Origin: Sphingomonas carotinifaciens
GTDB lineage: Bacteria > Pseudomonadota > Alphaproteobacteria > Sphingomonadales > Sphingomonadaceae
Length of the DNA stretch: 64,000 nt
Direction of reading: 5' to 3'
NCBI RefSeq assembly: GCF_009789535.1
Contig: NZ_WSUT01000005.1
Coordinates: forward strand, 2,680,001-2,744,000
Part shown: piece by piece, positions 6,510-22,886 of the stretch
How the letters are laid out: each line of letters opens with the position of its first letter
How positions within the stretch are numbered: the stretch's first letter is position 1
Made by a program: the position numbers and the translations under genes
Notes under the pieces: generated by a model
What the model was told of the DNA's origin: nothing
The model's input: the letters and a program-made list of their open reading frames with translations, nothing else
Database searches by the model: none

Positions 6510-7838
6510 TCAGGCCGCCTCTGTCTGTCGTTCGCGCGTGGCGAGCTTCGCCAGCAGGAATTGTGGTGCCGCGCCGTCGCGGAAATGGAAGCGCGTGGCC
6601 TGCCGGTCGTCGGCGCGTACCGCCGCGCCGAAGATGGCGGCGTCCGCCTCGTCGCCGACGAAGCTGTCGTGCACCGCCGCCTCGCGTGCGATCCGCTCAA
6701 CCGCGTCGACCGGCTGCGCCGGATCGGCGACCAGCGCGTCGAAGATGTCGGCATCCTCGTGGTTCAGCATCGCCCAGATGGTGAAGGCCCGCGCCAGCCC
6801 GCGATGCGTCGCCTCCAGGTCGATCACCTCGCCGCCGCGCCGCACCGTCTCGATCGCCGCGACGTAGCAGAACAGCTGGACGTGGTAGGGCGACCCGCAC
6901 GAGATCGACGCGATTTCGGCGCGCGCCGCCTCGTCGAAGCGGACCTGCGCACGCTCCGCACCACGGTCGATCAACCGGTGGGTATCCTCGCGCGAGATGC
7001 GCCCAATCGGGATCGGGGTCAGGTGCCGGCGCAGCGAAGGGTGACACAGGATCAGCTCGTCCAGCGTCCGCGCGATGCCGACCAGCAGCACCTGTACCGG
7101 GACCCTCGCGTCCGACAGCAGCTTCATCAGCGTGGCGATCTGGCTGTTCACCGCCTCGCTCTCGACCCGGTCGAACTCGTCCAGGATCAGGATCGTCTGG
7201 CTGTCCGGCGACAGGCGGGACACCAGATCGACCACCTGCCGCGGCCCGAACTCGGCGGACAGCGCCTCGCGCTCGCGGGCGAACAGCGCCTTTTCCGCGA
7301 ACGGCACCGCCGATTCCGGGATGAACGACAGATAGGGCCGCAGCAGCTCGGCAAAGCTCGCCGTCGCCTCGCACGCGGTATAGATCACCACCGCGCCCTG
7401 GCTGTCGGCATAGTCGCCGAACACCTGCGCCAGCGACGTCTTGCCCGACCCCCGCGCACCGTGGATGATCGCGTGCTGGCGGCTGAACAGCACCGCCTCG
7501 AACAGCGTGTCCAGCTTGTCGTCGCGGCCGTGCAGGTCCTTGCGCTGGCGCACCGGATGGGCGGAATCGAACGCCTCGATGATCCGCGCGGTCGCATTCT
7601 TCGCGCCGAACCGGCCCGGCATCCGCTTGGGCGGCAACTCATCGTCCTGCGTCACCGCATCGGCCGTCGCCCGGAAGGAGGGCGACGCCGCCGTTTCCAG
7701 CACCGGCTCTACCGGCTCGGGCAGGCGGCGTGGTGGGGGCGTGCCCATCAGCCACGCCTTCAGGCGTTTCAACCAGCGCGCGGACGTCGATCGATCGTCC
7801 GGATAGGGCGCGGCCAGCATCATCTGCTTGGCCGTCAT
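6510..7838 (-). CDS. AAA-family ATPase in EPS operon
   Basis: 442 residues. An N-terminal region of about 95 residues, rich in Pro and charge, leads to an AAA_16/ExeA-like ATPase domain: Walker A GARGSGKT (residues 127-134), Walker B ILILDEFDRV, a sensor-like VLLVGIART and an arginine-containing second subdomain. The C-terminal quarter looks like a winged-helix segment. No membrane helix is evident. Its ATG overlaps the stop of the polymerase gene (ATGA), so the two are translationally coupled, and the chain-length gene follows after 31 bases. Similar ATPases occur in EPS loci with exosortase-type systems, but I do not know the biochemical role here. It may drive or gate polymer assembly in place of the P-loop-less kinase homologue; this is speculation. 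Confidence 0.8.
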   Translation of the reverse strand: MTAKQMMLAAPYPDDRSTSARWLKRLKAWLMGTPPPRRLPEPVEPVLETAASPSFRATADAVTQDDELPPKRMPGRFGAKNATARIIEAFDSAHPVRQRKDLHGRDDKLDTLFEAVLFSRQHAIIHGARGSGKTSLAQVFGDYADSQGAVVIYTACEATASFAELLRPYLSFIPESAVPFAEKALFAREREALSAEFGPRQVVDLVSRLSPDSQTILILDEFDRVESEAVNSQIATLMKLLSDARVPVQVLLVGIARTLDELILCHPSLRRHLTPIPIGRISREDTHRLIDRGAERAQVRFDEAARAEIASISCGSPYHVQLFCYVAAIETVRRGGEVIDLEATHRGLARAFTIWAMLNHEDADIFDALVADPAQPVDAVERIAREAAVHDSFVGDEADAAIFGAAVRADDRQATRFHFRDGAAPQFLLAKLATRERQTEAA

Positions 7839-9259
7839 CGCCGCAAGCCGTCTTGCATAGACCCTCCTGTCAGAAGCGGGGAAGGCGCACGGACGTGCGC
7901 GGGAAAGGAGAAACCGGTGCCGAAGCGCCGCACGGCGCGGGGCTTGGGCGGTGCGGCGGCGGGCGCGAAGCTGCCGGCGCGCATGAACCCGGCGAGCAGC
8001 CACATCATCGCGCTCACCTTGGTGCTGAACACCGCATTGCCCGCGATCAGCAGGTTGACGAACAGGAACACCCCTGTCGCCCAGGCGCAGCGCCGCTGTT
8101 CGGGCGAGCGGAACGGGATGACGAGGCCGACATACAGCCACAACAGGATCGCGCCGGCCAGCGAGCTGGAATACAGGACATAGGAATAGCCGCTGTCGAC
8201 GAAGCGGCCCGCCTCCCACACCCGCCCGCCCAGCACCGCGGCCATGTCCGTCTTTGCCAGGAAGTCGACCGACAGGCCGATGCGCCCGGCCAGGTCGTCC
8301 TCCTTGGACGGACCCAGATGCGCCGACAACGCGGTGGCCAGCCCCAGCAGGACCAGCGGGAACAGCAGCAGCCCGGCCCGCGGCAGGCGCGGGTACAGCC
8401 AGTATCCGGCCAGCGTCAGCACCGCCAGCGTCGACCCCAGCCGGGTGTTGTTCGACAACAGCGCCAGCAGCACGAACCCTGCGGTCAGCGCGCGTTCCGC
8501 CCAGCCGATCCGGTCCCACATCGCCACCACGTAGATGGCGACGACGCTGGCGAAATTCGCCATCGAGGTCTGCTCGATGAAGATGGACGAGGTGCGCGGC
8601 GTGGTGAACAGGCCGAAACTGAACCGCCCCTCGAACCCCAGCGCATTGCCGAACAACCCGATATCGCTCTGGTCGACGTCGCCCAGCCCGCGCGTGTTCT
8701 GATAATAGCTGAACGGGCTGAATATCTTGGCGTAAAGCTCGGTGGAGGCGATCTCCATCAGCATCACCGCCACCACCAGCCCGACGCCGGCGACGAAGGC
8801 GGCCCGGATCGTCGGCATGTTGCACCGCATGCCCAGCATCGTGAACAGCACGATGATCGTCACGTTGCGCAGCGCCTCGATCGCGAAGCCGCCATTGGCG
8901 AACGACAATCCGATGGCCAGCAACAGGAAGGCGACGCCCAGGCCGACCGGCGGCGTATCCTCGACCCGCAGCCCGAATGCGATCACGCTCAGCGCCACGG
9001 CCGCCAATATGCCGAATTCGGCCAGCGCGACCTGCGTGATGGTCAGCGACGGCCCATGCGCGTTCACGATCGCCAGCACGCCGTTGAACGACAATGCCGC
9101 CACGGTCAGCAGCACCGGCAACCAGGCGATCCGCAGGTTTTCCCCTACGCCTTCATGAGTATCCGCTGCTCCGGAAGGCGAGTATTCGGCGCCCGCTTCC
9201 TTAACAGGATCAATAAAACGGCTGTGCTGTCGCCCAAATGTCATGATCTTTTCCGGCAT
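7835..9259 (-). CDS. EPS polymerase, Wzy-like integral membrane protein
   Basis: About 474 residues with roughly 10-12 hydrophobic segments, from LRIAWLPVLLTVAALSFNGV to AGAILLWLYVGLVIPF, and a large periplasmic loop (about residues 180-250, with YYQNTRGLGDVDQSD). This matches Wzy/O-antigen-ligase-type polymerases, which are recognised by topology rather than strict motifs. It should polymerise flipped repeat units at the periplasmic face. Two starts are reasonable: ATG 9259 (GGGGGTGG upstream) and ATG 9244 (GGAAAAG upstream); the frame is open to 9343. It is the first gene of the minus-strand EPS operon and shares a divergent promoter region with the gene at 9440. Confidence 0.78.
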   Translation of the reverse strand: MPEKIMTFGRQHSRFIDPVKEAGAEYSPSGAADTHEGVGENLRIAWLPVLLTVAALSFNGVLAIVNAHGPSLTITQVALAEFGILAAVALSVIAFGLRVEDTPPVGLGVAFLLLAIGLSFANGGFAIEALRNVTIIVLFTMLGMRCNMPTIRAAFVAGVGLVVAVMLMEIASTELYAKIFSPFSYYQNTRGLGDVDQSDIGLFGNALGFEGRFSFGLFTTPRTSSIFIEQTSMANFASVVAIYVVAMWDRIGWAERALTAGFVLLALLSNNTRLGSTLAVLTLAGYWLYPRLPRAGLLLFPLVLLGLATALSAHLGPSKEDDLAGRIGLSVDFLAKTDMAAVLGGRVWEAGRFVDSGYSYVLYSSSLAGAILLWLYVGLVIPFRSPEQRRCAWATGVFLFVNLLIAGNAVFSTKVSAMMWLLAGFMRAGSFAPAAAPPKPRAVRRFGTGFSFPAHVRAPSPLLTGGSMQDGLRR

Positions 9260-14371: not shown

Positions 14372-15832
14372 TCACGCCTCCACCGGCCGCTTGCCGCGGC
14401 CGGCCATTTCCAGCGCGGTGGCAAAGGTCGTGCGGAACAGTTGCGGCGCCACCATGCGCAGCAACCCGCCATAGAGCAGCATGCCCGCCGGGATCATCAC
14501 CATCAGCACCACCGGCCCCGGCAGCACCGCCGCCAGCACCGGCCGCATCGCGAATAGCGCGACCATCATCGCGACCGCCGCCGCCACCGACGGCAACAGC
14601 GCCGTGCCGATCGTCCGCCACCCCAGCCCCATCGCATGCATCGCAAAGCGCAGGCGCAGCGGCAGTACGATCAGCGTCGCCATCGACACCCCCGCCGCCA
14701 GCGCCACCGGTCCATGCGGCGCCGCGATCCACAGCATCGCCACGTTCACCCCCGCCGCCACCCCGGACGTCAACGCATCATGATGCGATCGCTGCTCCAC
14801 CAGCAGCGCGGAGCTGGCGAACTGCCCCAGCGCGGCCAGATACCCGCTTGCCGCCAGCGCGGTCAGGATCGGCGCGGACGCCTCCCACCGCGCGCCGAGC
14901 AGCAGGTGAACAAGGAACGGCGAGGCGGCGGCCAGCCCGGCAAAGGCCGGGGCCACCGCCAGGCTCATCATCGTGAGCCCGGCGGCAAAGGCGCGCGCGC
15001 GTGCCCGGTCGTCGGCGATCCCGGCGAGCGCGGGCAGCGTGACCGAGGAAATCGCGTTGACCAGCATCATGTTGGCGGACAGCATGATCCGCTTGGCCGC
15101 GTTGTAGATGCCCGCCGCCGCCGGCCCGAACCATGCGGACGCAAAGAACAGGTCGGCATCGGTCGCCACCGCATTCCATGCCGCGCCCAGCGAGATATGC
15201 CGCGCCCGCCTCCACAGGTCGCGCAAACCCGCCCATGGCAGCCAGGGCCGCGGCCGATAGGGCGCGCTGACCCACAAGGTGATGATATTGAACAGGTTGA
15301 TGGTCAGTTGCTGGCCGACGAGGCTCCACAGGTCGAACCCGGCGAACGCCATGCCCAGCCCCACCACGCCGCCCGCGACCACCGACAGCGTTGATCGCAC
15401 GGCCAGCGCCCGGAAACGCATCTGCCGGGCCAGCCACGCGCCGTGCGTGCCCGCCAGCCCCATCACCAGCAGGATCACCGACAGCACGCGTAGCACCGGC
15501 GCCGCTTCCGGCGAGCCGATCAGCCGGGTCAGCTCCGCCGCGCTCAACGCGACGACGCCCGCGCTCAGGCCACCCAGGATCAGGATGACGTTGAAGCACA
15601 GGTCGTAATCGCGGTTGCTGACCTCGGTGCGCGCATTGGTGGCGTTGGTGACCGGGTCGATCAATAGACGCCGCACCACCTCCACCACCGCCAGGCTGAC
15701 CGCGACCAGCCCGAAACTGGCCTGCGACACGAACCGCGCGATGACCAGAAAGACCAGCAGCGACAACATCTGCCCCGCCCCCTGGCCCAGCACGGCCCAG
15801 GCGGCGTGGCCGCCCATACGCGCACGGCTCAT
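14372..15832 (-). CDS. Wzx-type lipid-linked oligosaccharide flippase
   Basis: 486 residues and about 12-14 membrane segments across the full length, starting HAAWAVLGQGAGQMLSLLVF and ending VLMVMIPAGMLLYGGLLRM, with a polysaccharide-synthase/MATE-like organisation. It would move undecaprenyl-linked repeat units to the periplasm for the polymerase. The ATG overlaps the stop of the GT2 gene by four bases (ATGA), so the two are translationally coupled in a small separate minus-strand operon. The family is sure; specificity is unknown. Confidence 0.88.
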   Translation of the reverse strand: MSRARMGGHAAWAVLGQGAGQMLSLLVFLVIARFVSQASFGLVAVSLAVVEVVRRLLIDPVTNATNARTEVSNRDYDLCFNVILILGGLSAGVVALSAAELTRLIGSPEAAPVLRVLSVILLVMGLAGTHGAWLARQMRFRALAVRSTLSVVAGGVVGLGMAFAGFDLWSLVGQQLTINLFNIITLWVSAPYRPRPWLPWAGLRDLWRRARHISLGAAWNAVATDADLFFASAWFGPAAAGIYNAAKRIMLSANMMLVNAISSVTLPALAGIADDRARARAFAAGLTMMSLAVAPAFAGLAAASPFLVHLLLGARWEASAPILTALAASGYLAALGQFASSALLVEQRSHHDALTSGVAAGVNVAMLWIAAPHGPVALAAGVSMATLIVLPLRLRFAMHAMGLGWRTIGTALLPSVAAAVAMMVALFAMRPVLAAVLPGPVVLMVMIPAGMLLYGGLLRMVAPQLFRTTFATALEMAGRGKRPVEA

Positions 15833-16722
15833 GTGGCGGGCTGGAACAGGAAGCCGTGCAACAGGCCGCGCAGGATCAGCGCCGCGCCGTGCCAGCGGCC
15901 GCGCGTCGCCATCCCGGCGGCAAGCCGCGTCTGCCGGATCAGCAGGTAGATCAACTGCCGCTTGCGCTCGTACCGCCGGGTGGTGAAGGTCGTGTTGCGC
16001 ACCATGAAATAATGGTAGCGGATACGCTCCGGATTGCGCTCGGTGCGGATGTCCAGCTGGCCCTCCGTCGCGCGGGCGTGCAGCACGGTGCTGCCCCCCA
16101 CCAGGAAACCGGGCCGCTCGCGGCTGATCCGCACGGTATATTCGCGGTCCTCGCCCCACATGAACATGTCCGCCAGCGGCAGGCCATGTTCCTCGACCGT
16201 GGCGCGCGGCAGCAGGATCGACACGAACGTCGCACCCCTGGTCGGCACCATGCCATGGTCCAGCAGCAGCGGCCAGTTCTGGAAGCCGATCGCGTTGGCC
16301 CGCCGGTCCAGGTCGGGCACGTCGGTCAGCGCGCCGCTCCGGCCGCGCGCGCGCGACACCAGATAGCTGGGGCTCACCCCCTGCCCCGCCAGCGTCTCGT
16401 CCGCCGCCAGCAACCGCTCCAGCGCGTCACGGTCCGGCAACACGTCGTCGTCCATCATCCAGACGTGATCGGCATCCGTCTCGAACGCATCGTGCAGGGC
16501 GGCGCGAAAGCCGCCGGCCGCGCCGACATTGCGGGGCAGCGACACCAGTTGCACCCGTTCGCCCCATTCGCGGCGGATGAACGGCGCGGTGCCGTCGGTG
16601 CTGGCATTGTCCAGCACCAGGATACGGTCCGGCACGCGCGACTGCCCGACCAGCGCGGTCAGGCACTGGTCGAGCATCGACCGCCGATTATAGGTCAGCA
16701 CCACGGCACAGACGATCGACAT
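15829..16722 (-). CDS. Glycosyltransferase family 2
   Basis: About 297 residues. GT-A fold: VCAVVLTYNRRSMLDQCL at the N-terminus, ILVLDNASTDGT, then the DxD region VWMMDDDVLPD; further on FMWGEDREYTVR is the ED motif carrying the catalytic base in inverting GT2 enzymes. It resembles rhamnosyl- and galactofuranosyl-transferase-type GT2 proteins. ATG 16722 is chosen because AAGGGGA lies at proper spacing; an ATG at 16728 would be too close to it. Acts in the cytoplasm on the lipid-linked EPS intermediate. Confidence 0.9.
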   Translation of the reverse strand: MSIVCAVVLTYNRRSMLDQCLTALVGQSRVPDRILVLDNASTDGTAPFIRREWGERVQLVSLPRNVGAAGGFRAALHDAFETDADHVWMMDDDVLPDRDALERLLAADETLAGQGVSPSYLVSRARGRSGALTDVPDLDRRANAIGFQNWPLLLDHGMVPTRGATFVSILLPRATVEEHGLPLADMFMWGEDREYTVRISRERPGFLVGGSTVLHARATEGQLDIRTERNPERIRYHYFMVRNTTFTTRRYERKRQLIYLLIRQTRLAAGMATRGRWHGAALILRGLLHGFLFQPAT

Positions 16723-16822
16723 GCGCATTCCCCTTCGCCTCCGCTCCGATGGCGGGCCCCCTGATCGGGCGCGTCTTCAGGATAAGGCCATGCTGCACTG
16801 CGTCGCGCGCTATTCCGATATA

Positions 16823-16853: not shown

Positions 16854-17579
16854 TTATTGCAGCTGCTGTCCGATGCGCTGCTGGATCAGTTGGCGGGCAT
16901 GATGGCTCGGATGACCATCAGCCGTCGGCGCGTTTCCCCGCTCGCCCAGCGCCCAGATCGCCGCCTGGGTACGGTTCTGCACGCCGATCTTGCGCAGGAT
17001 CGCCTTGACGTGGACCTTCACCGTCGCCTCACTGATGCCCAGCTCGCGCGAGATGATCTTGTTGGGATTGCCCGACACCAGACAGGTCAGGATCTGCACC
17101 TCGCGCGTGGACAGCCCGGCCGCCTGGATCGATGCGGTGCTGCCCACCGGCTCGCTCTGCCCGATATGATGACGCAGCGTCTCGGCCAGGTTGCTGGGCA
17201 TCACCTTCTCGCCGTCCGCCACCAGGTTCAGCAGCTTGATGAGCGAGGTCGATGCGATCCGCTTGACGATATAGCCATAGGCGCCCTGGTCGAAATTGCG
17301 CGCCATCACGTCGAAATCGAACTGGTCCGCAAGGATCACGATCCGCGCGGCCGGCGATGCTTCCAGCAGGTCCTGGGTCAGCGTCCGGTCGGGCGTCGCC
17401 AGCCCGTCCACCACCACCAGATTGCAGTCGTCGGGGTGCAGGGCCACCGCCTGCGCCACATCGTCCGGATCGGACACCAAGGCGGTGATACGGAACCCCT
17501 GCTCCCTCAGCACGCGGTCCAGCCCTTCAAGGGCGATGGGATTGCTCCCCAGCAGTGTAACCCGAATGTCCGATATCAT
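16854..17579 (-). CDS. NarL/LuxR-type regulator with atypical receiver domain
   Basis: 241 residues. The receiver-like domain (1-120) keeps the phospho-acceptor position (LVVVDGL, Asp58) and a Lys (YIVKR) but has GSNP where active receivers have an acidic pair after beta-1, so Mg-dependent phosphorylation may be lost. The C-terminal LuxR HTH (about 155-200) is complete: LSTREVQILTCLVSGNPNKI followed by ISEATVKVHVKAIL. GAGGGGGA precedes ATG 17579. It lies between the EPS genes and the divergent sugar-nucleotide operon, so it probably controls one or both; the 445-base gap is the obvious target. No histidine kinase is encoded nearby. Confidence 0.87.
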   Translation of the reverse strand: MISDIRVTLLGSNPIALEGLDRVLREQGFRITALVSDPDDVAQAVALHPDDCNLVVVDGLATPDRTLTQDLLEASPAARIVILADQFDFDVMARNFDQGAYGYIVKRIASTSLIKLLNLVADGEKVMPSNLAETLRHHIGQSEPVGSTASIQAAGLSTREVQILTCLVSGNPNKIISRELGISEATVKVHVKAILRKIGVQNRTQAAIWALGERGNAPTADGHPSHHARQLIQQRIGQQLQ

Positions 17580-18024
17580 GATGGTCCCCCTCGTTGCGTG
17601 GCTTAACCCCTCAAGTCACGTTGCATGTTCCAACCGGGTCGCACCCTATACTCAGGCTGCCTCCCTCGCCGTCCGAATTCGCAGACGATGTAACCGGAAA
17701 GTCAGTCAACAGCAGTCATTATGCATTAAAGCACGTTAACCTGCCCAAGGCACAAAATGGTTACTACGTCGGTAATTAGAAGTCACCATTAACATCTTGC
17801 CAAAAATGGGACTCGCAACAACTTGGTCAATTTCAGGAATAAAATCACATTCATTATGCTGTGCCCGAATAACATGTAAGAATCTCTATGTACGCCCCTG
17901 GGATGATGTCCCGATGATCGGGGCGACACGGGGCCTAGCTTCGGGAATGTTGCACCTGCTGCCGAATGAGCCCGCATCAACGGGCGGCAGTTTTTGGAAC
18001 AGTCATCCACGAAGGGGTGCGTCG
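17580..18024. promoter_or_regulatory. 445-base divergent regulatory region and long 5-prime leader
   Basis: This gap is distinctly AT-richer than its neighbours between about 17690 and 17890 and holds no convincing gene. It carries AT-rich stretches that could be promoters in both directions, a CCCGAT-G-ATCGGG palindrome (17910-17922), and the intrinsic-terminator-like hairpin at 17959-17995. The frame of the downstream SDR stays open to 17797, but SDR homology starts only at MKILITGNMGY, so this upstream stretch is taken as leader. Confidence 0.6.
17959..17995 (+). terminator. Intrinsic terminator/attenuator in leader of the CDP-sugar operon
   Basis: CTGCC (17959-17963), a GAATGA bulge, and GCCCG (17970-17974) pair with CGGGC (17981-17985) and GGCAG (17986-17990) around a six-base loop, directly followed by TTTTT (17991-17995). 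This is the classic shape of a rho-independent terminator, placed 30 bases before the first start codon of the operon and not after a gene on that strand. Upstream CGGGGC at 17919-17924 could pair with part of the stem as an anti-terminator. Confidence 0.55.
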
Positions 18025-19110
18025 ATGAAGATCCTCATCACCGGCAATATGGGCTATGTCGGGCCCGCGGTGGTCCGTCACTTGCGTAGCCGGTTTCCTG
18101 ACGCCGTCCTCGACGGCTTCGACGCGGGCTTTTTCGCGCATTGCCTGACGACGCGGAACGGCCTACCGGAACGCGACCTGAACCGCCAGAGCTTCGGCGA
18201 TGCGCGCGCGCTGCGTGCCGGCGACCTTCAGGGCTATGACGCGGTGGTCATCCTGGCGGCGGTGTCGAACGACCCGATGGGAGAGCGGTTCGCCGGCGTC
18301 ACCGATGCCATCAACCGCGAGGCGGCGGTGTCGCTCGCCCGGGCGGCCTCGGATGCCGGCGTGCGAAACGTCGTCTTCGCCTCCAGCTGCAGCGTATACG
18401 GCATCGCCCAGGGCGGGCCGCGGCGCGAGGATGATCCGGTCAACCCGATCACCGCCTATGCCGCCTCCAAGATCGGCACCGAACAGGCGCTGGCCACGAT
18501 CGGCGGCGACACCGTCATCACCAGCCTGCGCTTCGCCACCGCCTGCGGCATGTCGGCGCGCCTGCGCCTCGACCTCGTCCTCAACGATTTTGTCGCCAGC
18601 GCCCTCGCCACCGGCCGCATCACCATCCTTTCCGACGGCACCCCCTGGCGCCCGCTGATCGACGTGGCCGACATGGCGCGCGCGATCGAATGGGCCGCGA
18701 CGCGCACCGCCGATCATGGCGGCCGCAACCTCGTCGTCAATGCCGGGGCCACCACCGCCAATTACCAGGTCCGCGATCTGGCGCAGGCGGTGGGTCGTCT
18801 CGTCCCCGGTTGCACTGTGTCCATCAACCATGATGCGCCGGTCGACTCCCGCTCCTACCAGGTCGATTTCAGCCGCTTTGCGCAATTGGCGCCGGCGCAC
18901 CGTCCGCAACTATCGCTCGATGACTCCATCCAGGGCCTGATCGCAGGTCTTCAGGGGATCGACTTCGCCGACCCGGATTTCCGCACCTCCTCGCTGATCC
19001 GGCTTCAGGTCCTGAAAGGCCTGATCGCCGATGGCTTCCTCAGCGAAGACCTCCACTGGTCGAAGCCGGACGCCCCCCACTGGACGCCCGAAATCGAGGA
19101 GGCGGCATGA
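18025..19110 (+). CDS. SDR-family NAD-dependent sugar epimerase/reductase
   Basis: 361 residues of extended-SDR type. NAD site MKILITGNMGYVG (TGxxGxxG), catalytic VFASSCSVYG and the YAASK motif (Y-x3-K) are intact. The serine segment reads SSCSVYG rather than the T-D-E pattern of sugar 4,6-dehydratases, so it is more likely an epimerase or reductase. GAAGGGG precedes ATG 18025. It is followed by RfbF with an ATGA overlap, so it likely acts on a CDP-activated sugar. C-terminal residues (DFADPDFRTSSLIRLQVLK) resemble SDRs found in rfbF-linked operons of unknown product. Confidence 0.85.
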   Translation: MKILITGNMGYVGPAVVRHLRSRFPDAVLDGFDAGFFAHCLTTRNGLPERDLNRQSFGDARALRAGDLQGYDAVVILAAVSNDPMGERFAGVTDAINREAAVSLARAASDAGVRNVVFASSCSVYGIAQGGPRREDDPVNPITAYAASKIGTEQALATIGGDTVITSLRFATACGMSARLRLDLVLNDFVASALATGRITILSDGTPWRPLIDVADMARAIEWAATRTADHGGRNLVVNAGATTANYQVRDLAQAVGRLVPGCTVSINHDAPVDSRSYQVDFSRFAQLAPAHRPQLSLDDSIQGLIAGLQGIDFADPDFRTSSLIRLQVLKGLIADGFLSEDLHWSKPDAPHWTPEIEEAA

Positions 19111-19925
19111 TGAAGGCTGTTCTGCTGGCCGGCGGCTTCGGCACCCGCCTCGCCGAGGAAACTACCGTCACCCCCAAGCCGATGGTGGAGATCGGCGGCA
19201 AGCCGATCATGTGGCACATCATGAAGATCTATGCCCATTACGGCATCACCGATTTCGTGGTGCTGGGCGGCTACAAGGTCGATTATATCCGCAGCTACTT
19301 CCTGAACTATCAGGCGCGCAACTGCGACATGGTGGTCAATCTGGGCACCGGTGCCGTCGAATGGCTGAGCTGCGCGACCGAGGACTGGCGTGTCACCATC
19401 CTCGATACCGGGCTGGATTCGATGACCGGCGGCCGTCTGCGCCGCGCCCGTCATCTGCTTCAGGACGGGCCCTTCTGCCTGACCTATGGCGACGGCGTCA
19501 GCGACGTCGATATCCCCGCGCTGGTCCAGCAGCACAAGGACAGCGGCGCCTGGTGCACGCTGACCGCCGTGTCGCAACCGGGTCGCTACGGCGCGCTGCG
19601 CATCGATGGCGGCACGCAGGTGCAGGGCTTCAGCGAGAAGGGCAAGTCGGACGGGGGCATGATCAATGGCGGCTTCTTCGTGTGTTCGCCCGAGATGCTC
19701 GACCTGATCGACAATGACGACACGGTGCTGGAAAATGAGCCGATGGACCGGCTGATCGCCGCCGGCCGGCTCGGTGCCTATCGTCATGACGGCTTCTGGC
19801 AGAGCATGGACACGCTGCGCGACAAGCATCTGCTCGAAAGCCTGTGGCAGGGGGGCAGCCCGCCCTGGAAGGTCTGGCACGACACCGCACCCGCCAGCGT
19901 CACGCCACTGAGGCGCACGGCATGA
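19107..19925 (+). CDS. rfbF: Glucose-1-phosphate cytidylyltransferase
   Basis: 272 residues, the normal length for RfbF. MKAVLLAGGFGTRLAEET is the nucleotidyltransferase G-x-G-T-R loop, TPKPMVEIGGKPIMWHIM the sugar-phosphate side, and YGDGVSDVDI the metal-binding Asp region; the family-typical ending FWQSMDTLRDK is also present. It makes CDP-glucose from CTP and glucose-1-phosphate in the cytoplasm. ATG 19107 overlaps the SDR stop. In classic dideoxyhexose pathways rfbF is followed by the CDP-glucose 4,6-dehydratase rfbG; here that gene is absent and the next gene encodes a SAF-domain oxidoreductase. Confidence 0.95.
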   Translation: MMKAVLLAGGFGTRLAEETTVTPKPMVEIGGKPIMWHIMKIYAHYGITDFVVLGGYKVDYIRSYFLNYQARNCDMVVNLGTGAVEWLSCATEDWRVTILDTGLDSMTGGRLRRARHLLQDGPFCLTYGDGVSDVDIPALVQQHKDSGAWCTLTAVSQPGRYGALRIDGGTQVQGFSEKGKSDGGMINGGFFVCSPEMLDLIDNDDTVLENEPMDRLIAAGRLGAYRHDGFWQSMDTLRDKHLLESLWQGGSPPWKVWHDTAPASVTPLRRTA

Positions 19926-21247
19926 TCCTCGTCGATACCGCGCTTGCCGCGCGCGAAGCGGCCGGCAACCCGATCCGCGTCGGCATCGTCGGCGCCGGCT
20001 TCCAGGGTGCCGCCATCGTCCGCCAGATCGTGCGATCCACCAAGGGGATGCGCGTCGTCGCGGTCGCCAACCGCAACCTTGCCACCGCGGTCGCCGCGGT
20101 CGAGGTACTCGGCATCGCACCTCTGGTCTGCGACGACCGTCCTGCGATCGAACGCGCGATCGCCACCGGCCGTATCGCGGTCACCGACGATGCGGTGGGG
20201 CTTGCACAGGCGGACGGCATCGATGTCGTGGTCGAGGTGACGGGCTCGGTCGACTATGCCGCCACCGTCGTCCTCGCCGCGATCGAGGCGGGCAAGCACG
20301 TCGTGCAGATGAACGCCGAACTGGACGGCACCGTCGGCCCGGTGCTCAAGGCGCGTGCCGATGCGGCCGGCGTCATCTACACCTTCTCCGACGGCGATCA
20401 GCCGGGGGTGCAGATGAACCTCGTCCGCTTCGTCCGCGGCCTCGGGGTCACGCCCGTCCTGTGCGGCAATATCAAGGGGTTGCAGGACCCGTATCGCAAT
20501 CCGACCACCCAGGCCGGCTTTGCCGAGAAATGGGGGCAGAAGCCCGCCATGGTCGCCTCCTTCGCCGATGGCACCAAGATCTCCTATGAACAGGCGGTGG
20601 TCGCCAACGGCACCGGCTTTCGCGTCGCGCAGCGCGGCATGGTCGGCCCCGATCCCACGGGTCGCGATCCCACCGTGCCGCTGCAACCGCTGGAGGACAT
20701 CATCGCGCCGCTGGCCGATGCGCTCGACACGCATGGGCCCGGTCTGGTCGATTATGTCGTCGGCGCCCGCCCCGGCCCCGGCGTCTTCGTGCTGGGCACG
20801 CATGACGACCCGCGCCAGCAGCATTTCCTCAACCTCTACAAGCTTGGCGCCGGCCCCTATTACCTGTTCTACACCCCCTATCATCTCTGCCATTTCGAGG
20901 TGCCGACCTCGATCGCGCGCGCCGCGCTGTTCGGCGACGCAGTGCTCGCCCCCTCGGGCGGGCCGCAGGTGGGCGTGGTCGCCGCCGCCAAGAAGGACCT
21001 CCATCCCGGCGACCGCATTGCCGAGTTCGGCGGCTATGAATGCTACGGCGTGGCGGAGAATTATCCGGTGATCGAACATGACCGCCTGTTGCCGCTCGGC
21101 CTTGCGCTCGACTGCACCGTCACCCGCTTCGTCGCCCGGGACAGCATCCTCACCTACGCCGATGTCGCCATCCCCGAAGGCCGCCTCGTCGATCGCCTCT
21201 ACGCCGAACAGGCCGCCCTGTTCTCCACCAGGAGCCTAGCCGCATGA
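19922..21247 (+). CDS. Homoserine-dehydrogenase-like SAF-domain oxidoreductase
   Basis: 441 residues. A Rossmann domain (RVGIVGAGFQGAAIVRQIV) with VVVEVTGSVDYAA and GKHVVQMNAELDGTVGP, then a central domain (FSDGDQPGVQMNLVRF) and a C-terminal SAF domain (APSGGPQVGVVAAAKKDL to the end). This is the COG4091-type oxidoreductase. SAF domains also occur in sialic-acid synthase and altronate dehydratase. It is coupled by ATGA overlaps on both sides to rfbF and to the cupin epimerase, so a role in modifying a CDP-sugar or its precursor is the simplest reading; the substrate is not known to me. Confidence 0.82.
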   Translation: MILVDTALAAREAAGNPIRVGIVGAGFQGAAIVRQIVRSTKGMRVVAVANRNLATAVAAVEVLGIAPLVCDDRPAIERAIATGRIAVTDDAVGLAQADGIDVVVEVTGSVDYAATVVLAAIEAGKHVVQMNAELDGTVGPVLKARADAAGVIYTFSDGDQPGVQMNLVRFVRGLGVTPVLCGNIKGLQDPYRNPTTQAGFAEKWGQKPAMVASFADGTKISYEQAVVANGTGFRVAQRGMVGPDPTGRDPTVPLQPLEDIIAPLADALDTHGPGLVDYVVGARPGPGVFVLGTHDDPRQQHFLNLYKLGAGPYYLFYTPYHLCHFEVPTSIARAALFGDAVLAPSGGPQVGVVAAAKKDLHPGDRIAEFGGYECYGVAENYPVIEHDRLLPLGLALDCTVTRFVARDSILTYADVAIPEGRLVDRLYAEQAALFSTRSLAA

Positions 21248-21792
21248 AATTCCACAAGACCGATCTCCAGGACGCCCTGCTGATCGAACTGGAGGAGCGC
21301 GGCGACGAACGCGGCTTCTTTGCCCGGTCGATGTGTCAGGACGAGTTCACCGCCGCCGGCATGATCCCGGCCTATGTGCAGCAGAACGTGTCGATGTCCG
21401 CGCACAAGGGCACGGTGCGCGGCATGCATTTCCAGCGCGCACCGCATAGCGAGGCCAAGCTGATCCGCTGCGTGCGCGGCGCGATCCTGGACGTGATCGT
21501 CGATCTGCGCCCCGCCTCGCCCAGCTATATGCGCTCCGAGGCCTTTCTGCTCGACGATCGCGACCGTCGCCAGCTCTACGTGCCGCCGGGCTTCGCGCAC
21601 GGCTTCCAGACGCTGACCGACGATGTCGAGGTGACCTATCTGGTTTCCGCCCTGTATACGCCGTCATCGGAAGGCGGACTTCGCCACGACGATCCCGAAC
21701 TCGGCATCGCATGGCCGCTCGTCGCCACCGTCGTCTCGCCCAAAGATGCCGCCTGGCCGCTGATCGACCGCGCCGCGCTGCCGGCGCTCTGA
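21244..21792 (+). CDS. RmlC-like NDP-4-keto-sugar 3,5-epimerase
   Basis: 182 residues, standard RmlC length. The cupin fold keeps the catalytic set of dTDP-4-dehydrorhamnose 3,5-epimerases: His62 (RGMHFQ), Lys72 (EAKLIRC) and Tyr132 (VTYLVSALYTP), with YVPPGFAHGF as the central cupin strand. It acts on a 4-keto nucleotide sugar. No rmlA, rmlB or rmlD is adjacent, so the natural substrate is probably the CDP-linked intermediate made by this operon rather than dTDP-sugar. The start overlaps the preceding stop by four bases. Confidence 0.88.
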   Translation: MKFHKTDLQDALLIELEERGDERGFFARSMCQDEFTAAGMIPAYVQQNVSMSAHKGTVRGMHFQRAPHSEAKLIRCVRGAILDVIVDLRPASPSYMRSEAFLLDDRDRRQLYVPPGFAHGFQTLTDDVEVTYLVSALYTPSSEGGLRHDDPELGIAWPLVATVVSPKDAAWPLIDRAALPAL

Positions 21793-21797
21793 CCCAA

Positions 21798-22886
21798 ATG
21801 GCCGATATCGATGCGGTGGTGGTGGGCGCAGGCGTCATCGGCCTCGCCATCGCCCGGCGGCTCGCCACCGCCGGCCTGTCCACGATCCTCGTGGAGGGGG
21901 ACGCCGTGGTCGGCAACGGCACCAGCTCGCGCAACAGCGAGGTGATCCATGCCGGCCTCTATTACGGCGCGACGCCCCGCAAGCGGGCCATGTGCATCGC
22001 CGGGCGCGAACATCTCTACGCCTATGCGCGGATGCGCGGCGTCGCCCATCGCCGCATCGGCAAGCTGATCGTCGCGTTCGAGGCTGCCGAGCTCGCCACC
22101 CTGTCGCGCATCATGGACGATGCGCGCGCCGCCGGCGTCGACGATCTGGTGGCACTCACCGGCGCGGACGCGCGCGCGCTCGAACCGGAACTTCGCTGCG
22201 CCGGAGCCCTGCTGTCGCCATCGACCGGGATCATCGACAGCCACGGACTGATGCAGGCGCTGCTCGCCGATGCCGAGGATGCCGGCGCTGTCCTCGCCTG
22301 CCGCACGCGCGTGTCGGGGCTGGTGCCGGGGCGCGGCGGCTGGACCGTCATGGTGGACGGCGAGCCCGCGCTGACCGCCACCCGCATCGTCAACGCCGCC
22401 GGCCTGGGCGCCGCCGCACTCGCCGCGGCGACCGAGGGGTTGGAACACGTCCCAACGCTCCGCTACGCGCGCGGTCATTATTTCACCTATGCCGGCCGGG
22501 TGCCCTTCACGCGCCTCATCTATCCGGTGCCCGTGCCCGGAGGCCTCGGCACGCACCTCACCCTCGACCTGTCGGGCAACGCCCGCTTCGGCCCCGACGT
22601 CGAATGGATCGACACTATCGACTACCGCGTCGACCCCGCCCGCGGCGACAGCTTCCGCGCGGCCGCCGCCCGCATCTGGCCCGCGCTCGACCCCAGCCGG
22701 ATCGCCCCCGGCTATGCCGGCATCCGCCCCAAGCTCGGCGGTCCTGGCGACCCCGCCGCCGACTTCGCGATCGACGGTCCCACCGAACACGGCCTCGCCG
22801 GTCTGGTCAACCTCTACGGCATCGAATCCCCCGGCCTCACCGCCTCGCTCGCCATCGCCGACGACGTCGCCCTCCGCATCGCCTGA
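21798..22886 (+). CDS. FAD-dependent oxidoreductase, L-2-hydroxyglutarate-oxidase-like
   Basis: 362 residues. The FAD-binding start AVVVGAGVIGLAIARRLA is followed by TSSRNSEVIHAGLYY, the DAO-superfamily loop typical of LhgO-type enzymes, and near the C-terminus GYAGIRPKLGGPG and VNLYGIESPGLTAS, all matching that group. LhgO oxidises L-2-hydroxyglutarate to 2-oxoglutarate. It starts five bases after the epimerase stop, so it is the last gene of the operon; either it regenerates 2-oxoglutarate for an aminotransferase or it acts on another 2-hydroxy acid in the sugar pathway. No aminotransferase is present in the window. Confidence 0.82.
   Translation: MADIDAVVVGAGVIGLAIARRLATAGLSTILVEGDAVVGNGTSSRNSEVIHAGLYYGATPRKRAMCIAGREHLYAYARMRGVAHRRIGKLIVAFEAAELATLSRIMDDARAAGVDDLVALTGADARALEPELRCAGALLSPSTGIIDSHGLMQALLADAEDAGAVLACRTRVSGLVPGRGGWTVMVDGEPALTATRIVNAAGLGAAALAAATEGLEHVPTLRYARGHYFTYAGRVPFTRLIYPVPVPGGLGTHLTLDLSGNARFGPDVEWIDTIDYRVDPARGDSFRAAAARIWPALDPSRIAPGYAGIRPKLGGPGDPAADFAIDGPTEHGLAGLVNLYGIESPGLTASLAIADDVALRIA

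Follow-up and report, generated by a model that had tools for sequence, protein, structure and literature searches.

A widespread CDP-sugar cassette that probably makes a ring-contracted, branched sugar by a dehydratase-free route

Organization of the operon and its sugar-nucleotide enzymes

The 64,000-nucleotide stretch of Sphingomonas carotinifaciens DNA analyzed here (contig NZ_WSUT01000005.1, positions 2,680,001 to 2,744,000; henceforth the window) carries five consecutive + strand genes at 18025-22886, coding for an extended short-chain dehydrogenase/reductase (SDR), the glucose-1-phosphate cytidylyltransferase RfbF, a DRL-family oxidoreductase, an RmlC-like epimerase and an LhgO-like FAD enzyme, in that order (Table 1). 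An earlier note on this DNA had described a tightly coupled operon for a cytidine diphosphate (CDP)-linked sugar, and the DNA bears out its junctions: ATGA overlaps at 19107, 19922 and 21244, and a five-base gap between the RmlC stop and the ATG of the FAD enzyme. This operon probably makes a ring-contracted, branched sugar for a surface polysaccharide by a route that dispenses with the CDP-glucose 4,6-dehydratase RfbG.

Table 1. Genes of the operon and of its surroundings in the window, with family matches and proposed roles
Feature	Positions	Strand	Family match; proposed role
Extended SDR, 361 aa	18025..19110	+	PF01370; proposed NAD-dependent, non-dehydrating CDP-glucose 4-dehydrogenase, Cj1427-like
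RfbF, glucose-1-phosphate cytidylyltransferase, 272 aa	19107..19925	+	TIGR02623
DRL/DXR-II-like oxidoreductase (DLO1 type), 441 aa	19922..21247	+	PF21135, PF03447; proposed ring-contracting reductoisomerase
RmlC-like 3,5-epimerase, 182 aa	21244..21792	+	TIGR01221
FAD-dependent DAO-family enzyme, LhgO-like, 362 aa	21798..22886	+	PF01266; proposed L-2-hydroxyglutarate oxidation
GT2 glycosyltransferase	15829..16728	-	best NCBIfam match GlfT1, below cut-off; possible sugar-transfer partner
Polysaccharide flippase (Polysacc_synt_3), start approximate	14372..15835	-	PF13440, 177.5 bits
LuxR/GerE-type response regulator, between the exopolysaccharide genes and the operon	16854..17579	-	PF00196, 73.9 bits; PF00072, 26.2 bits, below cut-off

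Two of the five proteins pass the cut-offs of well-defined families. RfbF scores 363.3 bits against the equivalog cut-off of 300.25 and aligns over residues 3-257 with 1tzf; six chosen conserved residues, which we take to be catalytic, are kept in 77 of 77 sequences. The RmlC-like protein scores 177 bits against a cut-off of 155.75, in line with the prior suggestion that it needs a 4-keto substrate, and matches 7pvi (E 3e-37), presumably the Coxiella burnetii epimerase CBU1838. Its residues H62, K72, Y132, Y138 and D150 are retained in 80 of 80 sequences; we assume that these are the exact catalytic positions and that the Lys and Asp belong among them. Cross et al. describe a His and a Tyr of the RmlC-type epimerase as catalytic (PMC9095892).

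A conserved cassette in five phyla

A scan with the DRL alignment of one genome per species, covering 84,980 species, gave at least 590 matching stretches, 486 of which encode a DRL relative. The cassette counts below concern the best 80 of these (at least 486) relatives, kept by DRL similarity with context disregarded; partner genes were found by tblastn, and some loci stop at a contig end. In all 80 loci the DRL gene is linked to one or more cassette partners: RmlC in 79 (it is absent from L070), the SDR in 78 and RfbF in 76. Seventy-one of the SDRs are window-like (type 1), and the remaining seven form a second type, 33-39% identical to the window SDR (L068, L069, L074, L082, L086, L091 and L092). 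Among co-directional loci with all four genes and a type-1 SDR, the order SDR-RfbF-DRL-RmlC occurs in 54 and RfbF-SDR-RmlC-DRL in 10. Four loci (L014, L074, L083 and L086) have no linked RfbF, yet their genomes code for one over the cut-off, and the SDR of L014 likewise lies elsewhere in its genome.

By their record titles, the 80 loci belong to Pseudomonadota, Bacteroidota, Chloroflexota and Acidobacteriota, and plasmid records add Deinococcota; for some titles the phylum is our own assignment. The operon genes recur jointly in loci of five phyla, a co-occurrence that exceeds chance, and the conserved neighborhood that the earlier note proposed to look for is a widespread cassette with no local oddity about it. 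In its own family the DRL gene is rare, being found in 4 of the 199 genomes drawn (its own included) and in neither of the two other listed genomes of its genus. Two Rhizobium loci (L106 and L107) have RmlC-DRL alone locally, with RfbF and the SDR about 14-18 kb away. In L106 (13490-17283; Rhizobium etli 8C-3 plasmid), genes that by eye look like a glutamate-1-semialdehyde-type aminotransferase and a sugar C-methyltransferase sit between the two parts, which suggests further modification of the CDP-sugar. Archaeal homologs (L108 and L109, 33-37% identical) were set aside; they do not have the cassette DRL signature K185/L187/I220, and L108 is annotated amid catabolic-looking genes.

Absence of the 4,6-dehydratase

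RfbF-RfbG pathways to CDP-3,6-dideoxyhexoses and yersiniose start from CDP-glucose, and the cassette resembles them in its RfbF and its CDP-glucose entry. They differ in using RfbG, whereas no RfbG over the TIGR02622 cut-off was found in 44 of the 46 cassette genomes searched (47 of the 80 loci were submitted), and here the 6-hydroxyl is expected to be kept. The S. carotinifaciens genome (4.09 Mb, completeness given as 100) likewise has none over the cut-off, its best match reaching 82.3 bits against 278.45. The absence of rfbG from the operon, as first noted, therefore extends to the genome, and a hidden copy elsewhere, which had been named as grounds for abandoning the idea, was rejected on that score. 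The operon SDR was also rejected as a 4,6-dehydratase: it has no TIGR02622 match at E 0.01 and passes the cut-off of no dehydratase family, and SSCSVYG replaces the dehydratase motif, which we take to be STDEVYG-like at that place. A classical CDP-dideoxyhexose pathway with rfbG elsewhere, to which RfbF and an RmlC-like enzyme would also belong, is contradicted by these searches and is highly improbable.

The source of the 4-keto group and its proposed redox partner

The nearest solved sequence to the SDR is Campylobacter jejuni Cj1427 (6vo6, E 1.8e-19), which also fills rows 1-5 of the Foldseek search at about 25% identity. Cj1427 is described as holding its NADH tightly and being reset by reduction of 2-oxoglutarate to L-2-hydroxyglutarate (PMC10680097). 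It works in the Cj1427-Cj1430-Cj1428 route to guanosine diphosphate (GDP)-heptose, for which a C4-dehydrogenase, a C3/C5-epimerase and a C4-reductase are experimentally known according to the same source. In common with that route, the cassette would oxidize C4 without dehydration, using an extended SDR, and then pass the product to an RmlC-like epimerase; it differs in its substrate (GDP-heptose there; CDP, presumably glucose, here) and in its last step, a C4-reductase there and a DRL-family reductoisomerase homolog here, with an LhgO-type gene in the operon.

The SSCSVYG pattern (residues 120-126), which the earlier note had pointed out as that of epimerases, is conserved together with Y145 and K149 in 69 aligned SDRs (with one X at S123). 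The motif stands; an epimerase role is the less apt reading, because RfbG occurs in loci that have no SDR. Inside the cassette of L062, a metagenome-assembled Sphingomonas, lies an RfbG of 478 bits, and the genome has no SDR at E<=1e-20. Two Persicobacter plasmids have RfbG-RmlC-RmlC-DRL together, and the 13 and 15 kb retrieved around them hold neither an SDR nor an LhgO gene. RfbG, a 4-keto producer, can thus replace the missing SDR in three loci, and we read the SDR as the source of the 4-keto group rather than as an epimerase. The SDR probably supplies this group without dehydration, and a C4 oxidation linked to 2-oxoglutarate appears quite likely from genomic context and homology. At L062 (9208-14752), the RfbG entry is accompanied by a duplicated C-terminal DRL fragment, which looks like recombination or misassembly of a metagenome bin. 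On the Persicobacter plasmids (L101 and L114), the two RmlC-like genes form a tandem ahead of the DRL gene and are perhaps separate C3- and C5-epimerases.

The FAD enzyme matches 3dme (E 1e-117), so its earlier description as LhgO-like holds in that respect; it falls short of the NF008726 cut-off (160.8 versus 299 bits), and a role, which the first description left unassigned, is now proposed. It would suit the SDR as a partner resembling L-2-hydroxyglutarate oxidase. In its own genome it is the sole LhgO-like gene above 22 bits, the next NF008726 match reaching 21.9. The fetched DNA of 19 of the 80 loci has an LhgO-type gene: 15 are window-type, including a partial 40% match in L062 (whose genome has no match at E<=1e-25), and four are of a second type, of which the three that were scored (L085, L086 and L089, the fourth being L078) all pass the cut-off. 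These genes fall into nine classes by type, strand and neighbors, the L089 gene being flanked by RfbF and the SDR. All four matching plasmid records of Deinococcus (D. ficus, D. aquaticus, D. aetherius and D. taeanensis) have the order rfbF-lhgO-SDR-rfbC-DRL; the records themselves name the gene lhgO (L-2-hydroxyglutarate oxidase), and the SDR is of the second type. An LhgO-like copy with at least 50% identity occurs in 27 genomes (the own genome excluded) and lies in the cassette locus in nine by hand count; for copies placed at random in a genome taken to be 4.9 Mb long, the probability of this is 2.4e-15, shared ancestry being ignored. One genome (G030) has a second copy of 48% identity.

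Alternatively, the SDR could be an ordinary epimerase, with the FAD enzyme directly oxidizing the sugar or a sugar-derived hydroxy acid and RmlC receiving its 4-keto substrate from another source. The SSCSVYG pattern and the PF01370 match would agree with this, as would galE being the best, though sub-threshold, NCBIfam match of the SDR and VIA-align placing several 4-epimerases level with Cj1427. Weighed against the RfbG found where the SDR is missing, the lhgO genes at cassette positions (identified by an equivalog score over the cut-off or by their name in the record) and the lack of any other prominent 4-keto source in the 80 neighborhoods, where the next SDR-like cluster reaches 9 of 80 by eye, we regard this alternative as decidedly unlikely.

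A DXR-II-like enzyme as a candidate for ring contraction

The third protein had been called a SAF-domain oxidoreductase. It is an oxidoreductase, matching PF21135 (DRL_cat, 175 bits) and PF03447; the SAF label falls away, with no PF08666 match at E 0.01, although PF08666 is listed for some homologs. Its homology to the solved DXR-II extends over nearly the whole length (34-35% identity, same fold), and the earlier guess of a branching step agrees well with such a reductoisomerase homolog, for which that activity is proposed. DXR-II has an isoprenoid role; the cassette DRL sits in a sugar-nucleotide operon, and the substrate-anchoring Lys193 and Thr229 are replaced by Leu187 and Ile220. Thr229 (Brucella numbering) is described as absolutely conserved in DXR-II, with Leu, Ile or Val at 229 in DLO1 (PMC3847144). 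This position is Ile in 81 of 81 sequences (the window and the 80 loci), as in DLO1 and not as in DXR-II, and Ile220 would make the DRL a DLO1-type protein. A Thr is seen at this position in two homologs of 34-35% identity, L102 and L103; the strain of the former, Sinorhizobium fredii NGR234, is listed under DXR-II (PMC3847144). In L103, an Aminobacter plasmid, the DXR-II-type gene with a K-K-T signature lies directly upstream of genes annotated as an alpha-ketoacid/acetoin dehydrogenase complex, a setting that does not resemble one for isoprenoid synthesis.

The DRL was rejected as a second 1-deoxy-D-xylulose 5-phosphate (DXP) reductoisomerase for isoprenoids with an incidental place in the operon. 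Family membership with DXR-II would favor this idea; it is contradicted by the Ile for Thr229 throughout, by the presence of a standard Dxr and by the cassette partners linked in every locus, and we give it next to no chance.

The DLO1 listing includes Sphingomonas wittichii, Rhodobacter sphaeroides, Chloroflexus aggregans and Deinococcus maricopensis, which are relatives of cassette hosts, along with Streptomyces griseus NBRC 13350 and, in five strains, C. burnetii; a further two Streptomyces are placed under DLO2 (PMC3847144). S. griseus makes streptose and C. burnetii makes dihydrohydroxystreptose (DHHS) (PMC9095892). The cassette DRL is a candidate for the enzyme behind such streptose-type sugars. 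Judged tentatively by accession offsets, the S. griseus entry YP_001827426 would correspond to about SGR_5914, which would put it next to strV, and the C. burnetii entry NP_820815 to about CBU_183x; strV is SGR_5915 (PMC6804068).

DXR acts on a ketone with alpha- and beta-hydroxyls, giving a branched aldehyde that is then reduced. A hexos-4-ulose would match this arrangement, with its ketone at C4 and hydroxyls at C3 and C2, and its ring would contract to a 3-C-(hydroxymethyl)-pentofuranose; whether the DRL does this is, on our estimate from homology, an even call. The proposed pathways to streptose and DHHS follow the same logic of C4 oxidation, RmlC epimerization and ring contraction in organisms listed with DLO1 genes, and Cross et al. 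name three activities required for a DHHS path, those of a C4 oxidase, an RmlC-type epimerase and a streptose-synthase-like enzyme (PMC9095892). They differ in being linked to thymidine diphosphate, with an RmlD paralog guessed for the contraction, whereas the cassette is CDP-linked and has a DRL-family enzyme.

The proposed route and how it weighs against a simple ketoreductase

We propose a complete route that starts with glucose-1-phosphate and ends in a DHHS-type CDP-3-C-(hydroxymethyl)-pentofuranose with the 6-hydroxyl kept, and give it a probability of roughly 0.5, in a loose reading that leaves stereochemistry and electron acceptor open. RfbF, by its family membership, would form CDP-glucose. 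The SDR, with bound NAD+, would oxidize C4 to the 4-keto sugar with no 4,6-dehydration and, as in Cj1427, would be reset by reducing 2-oxoglutarate to L-2-hydroxyglutarate; context and homology point to this. The LhgO-like flavoenzyme would return L-2-hydroxyglutarate to 2-oxoglutarate, pulling the C4 oxidation forward. The RmlC-like enzyme, whose active-site residues are kept, would epimerize C5 and possibly C3 too. The DRL would then carry out a DXR-type reductoisomerization, in which the bond beta to the 4-ketone breaks and a C2-C4 bond forms; by our own atom mapping, C3 would become an aldehyde branch and then CH2OH. For streptose formation, the broken bond is C3-C4 according to Cross et al. 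(PMC9095892). Where RfbG takes the place of the SDR, the cassette would yield the 5-deoxy analog, of the dihydrostreptose type. Finally, the neighboring GlfT1-like GT2 may transfer the furanose into exopolysaccharide (EPS).

A homolog of this GT2 is found in 35 of the 80 loci, on either strand, at 41-63% identity (94% in L013). Its best NCBIfam match is the galactofuranosyltransferase GlfT1 (NF050113), at 71.5 bits under a cut-off of 330; GlfT1 is the best match, below cut-off, for all three members scored. This resemblance may faintly suit a furanose product.

The same first three steps could instead lead to an unbranched CDP-hexose changed at C3 and C5, e.g., a CDP-L-hexose, if the DRL were a plain NAD(P)H-dependent 4-ketoreductase. 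The dehydrogenase-epimerase-reductase logic of the GDP-heptoses provides a precedent for this (PMC10680097), homoserine dehydrogenase, a simple oxidoreductase, is another relative of the DRL, and representatives of the DLO families failed as DXR (PMC3847144). Set against this, the closest solved relative of the DRL over almost its whole length is a reductoisomerase, the DLO1 listing includes the two known producers of streptose-type sugars, and the recurrent neighboring GT2 is furanosyltransferase-like, albeit below cut-off. On this balance, a plain ketoreductase appears rather unlikely.

Several observations weigh against the ring-contracting route. We infer every activity, substrate and product in it from sequence. 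None of the four DLO1/DLO2 proteins tested complemented a DXR mutant (PMC3847144), and the DRL has both the second fosmidomycin lysine and Thr229 replaced; a reductoisomerase reaction is therefore not assured. For the ring contraction itself, Cross et al. favor the RmlD paralog (PMC9095892). VIA-align places the SDR level with Cj1427 and with several 4-epimerases alike. SDR and RfbG are not strictly exclusive, with L086 (Anaerolineae) having RfbG, a type-2 SDR and LhgO; the gene order of L062, a metagenome assembly with its duplicated DRL fragment, may be an artifact; and the Persicobacter stretches also have no RfbF, leaving the CDP link there unsupported. The FAD enzyme scores under its equivalog cut-off, and 61 of the 80 loci have no LhgO-type gene in the fetched DNA, some of them ending at a contig end.

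A broader reading, which we hold tentatively, is that the DLO1-type cassette DRLs are the ring-contracting reductoisomerases of streptose-type branched sugars, and that CDP-DHHS-type furanoses, described as unique to C. burnetii, are made by many environmental bacteria of at least five phyla via a dehydratase-free, 2-oxoglutarate-driven path with recycling of L-2-hydroxyglutarate. If true, this would explain how CDP-sugar operons work without RfbG, assign a function to a branch of the DXR-II family and make the ring-contraction question of streptose and DHHS testable with cassette enzymes. It would also offer a clear case of a ping-pong sugar dehydrogenase whose by-product, L-2-hydroxyglutarate, is cleared by an enzyme encoded in the same operon. 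It would further predict that many bacteria have branched furanoses in their surface polysaccharides, where to our knowledge they have not been looked for. The open-access library searched (subscription papers aside) yielded nothing joining streptose with a reductoisomerase; nothing joining glucose-1-phosphate cytidylyltransferase, SAF domain and oxidoreductase; nothing joining CDP-glucose with homoserine dehydrogenase in this context; and, on CBU_1833/CBU_1837, only a virenose paper.

Genomic setting

The operon borders an EPS locus, as had been recognized from the sequence: besides the flippase and the GT2, a Wzz-like protein, a GT4 and a BBP2_2 porin lie nearby. The promoter scan gave no + strand promoter ahead of the operon, and the terminator scan found one terminator versus 1.9 expected. 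At 17970-17995, about 30-55 bases upstream of where the SDR begins, there is a short GC stem and after it GGCAGTTTTT; this could represent an attenuator or an element of the ops/JUMPstart kind, and may also have arisen by chance. Within the EPS region, an open reading frame at 6513-8825 of the - strand codes for an AAA/STAND-type ATPase domain.

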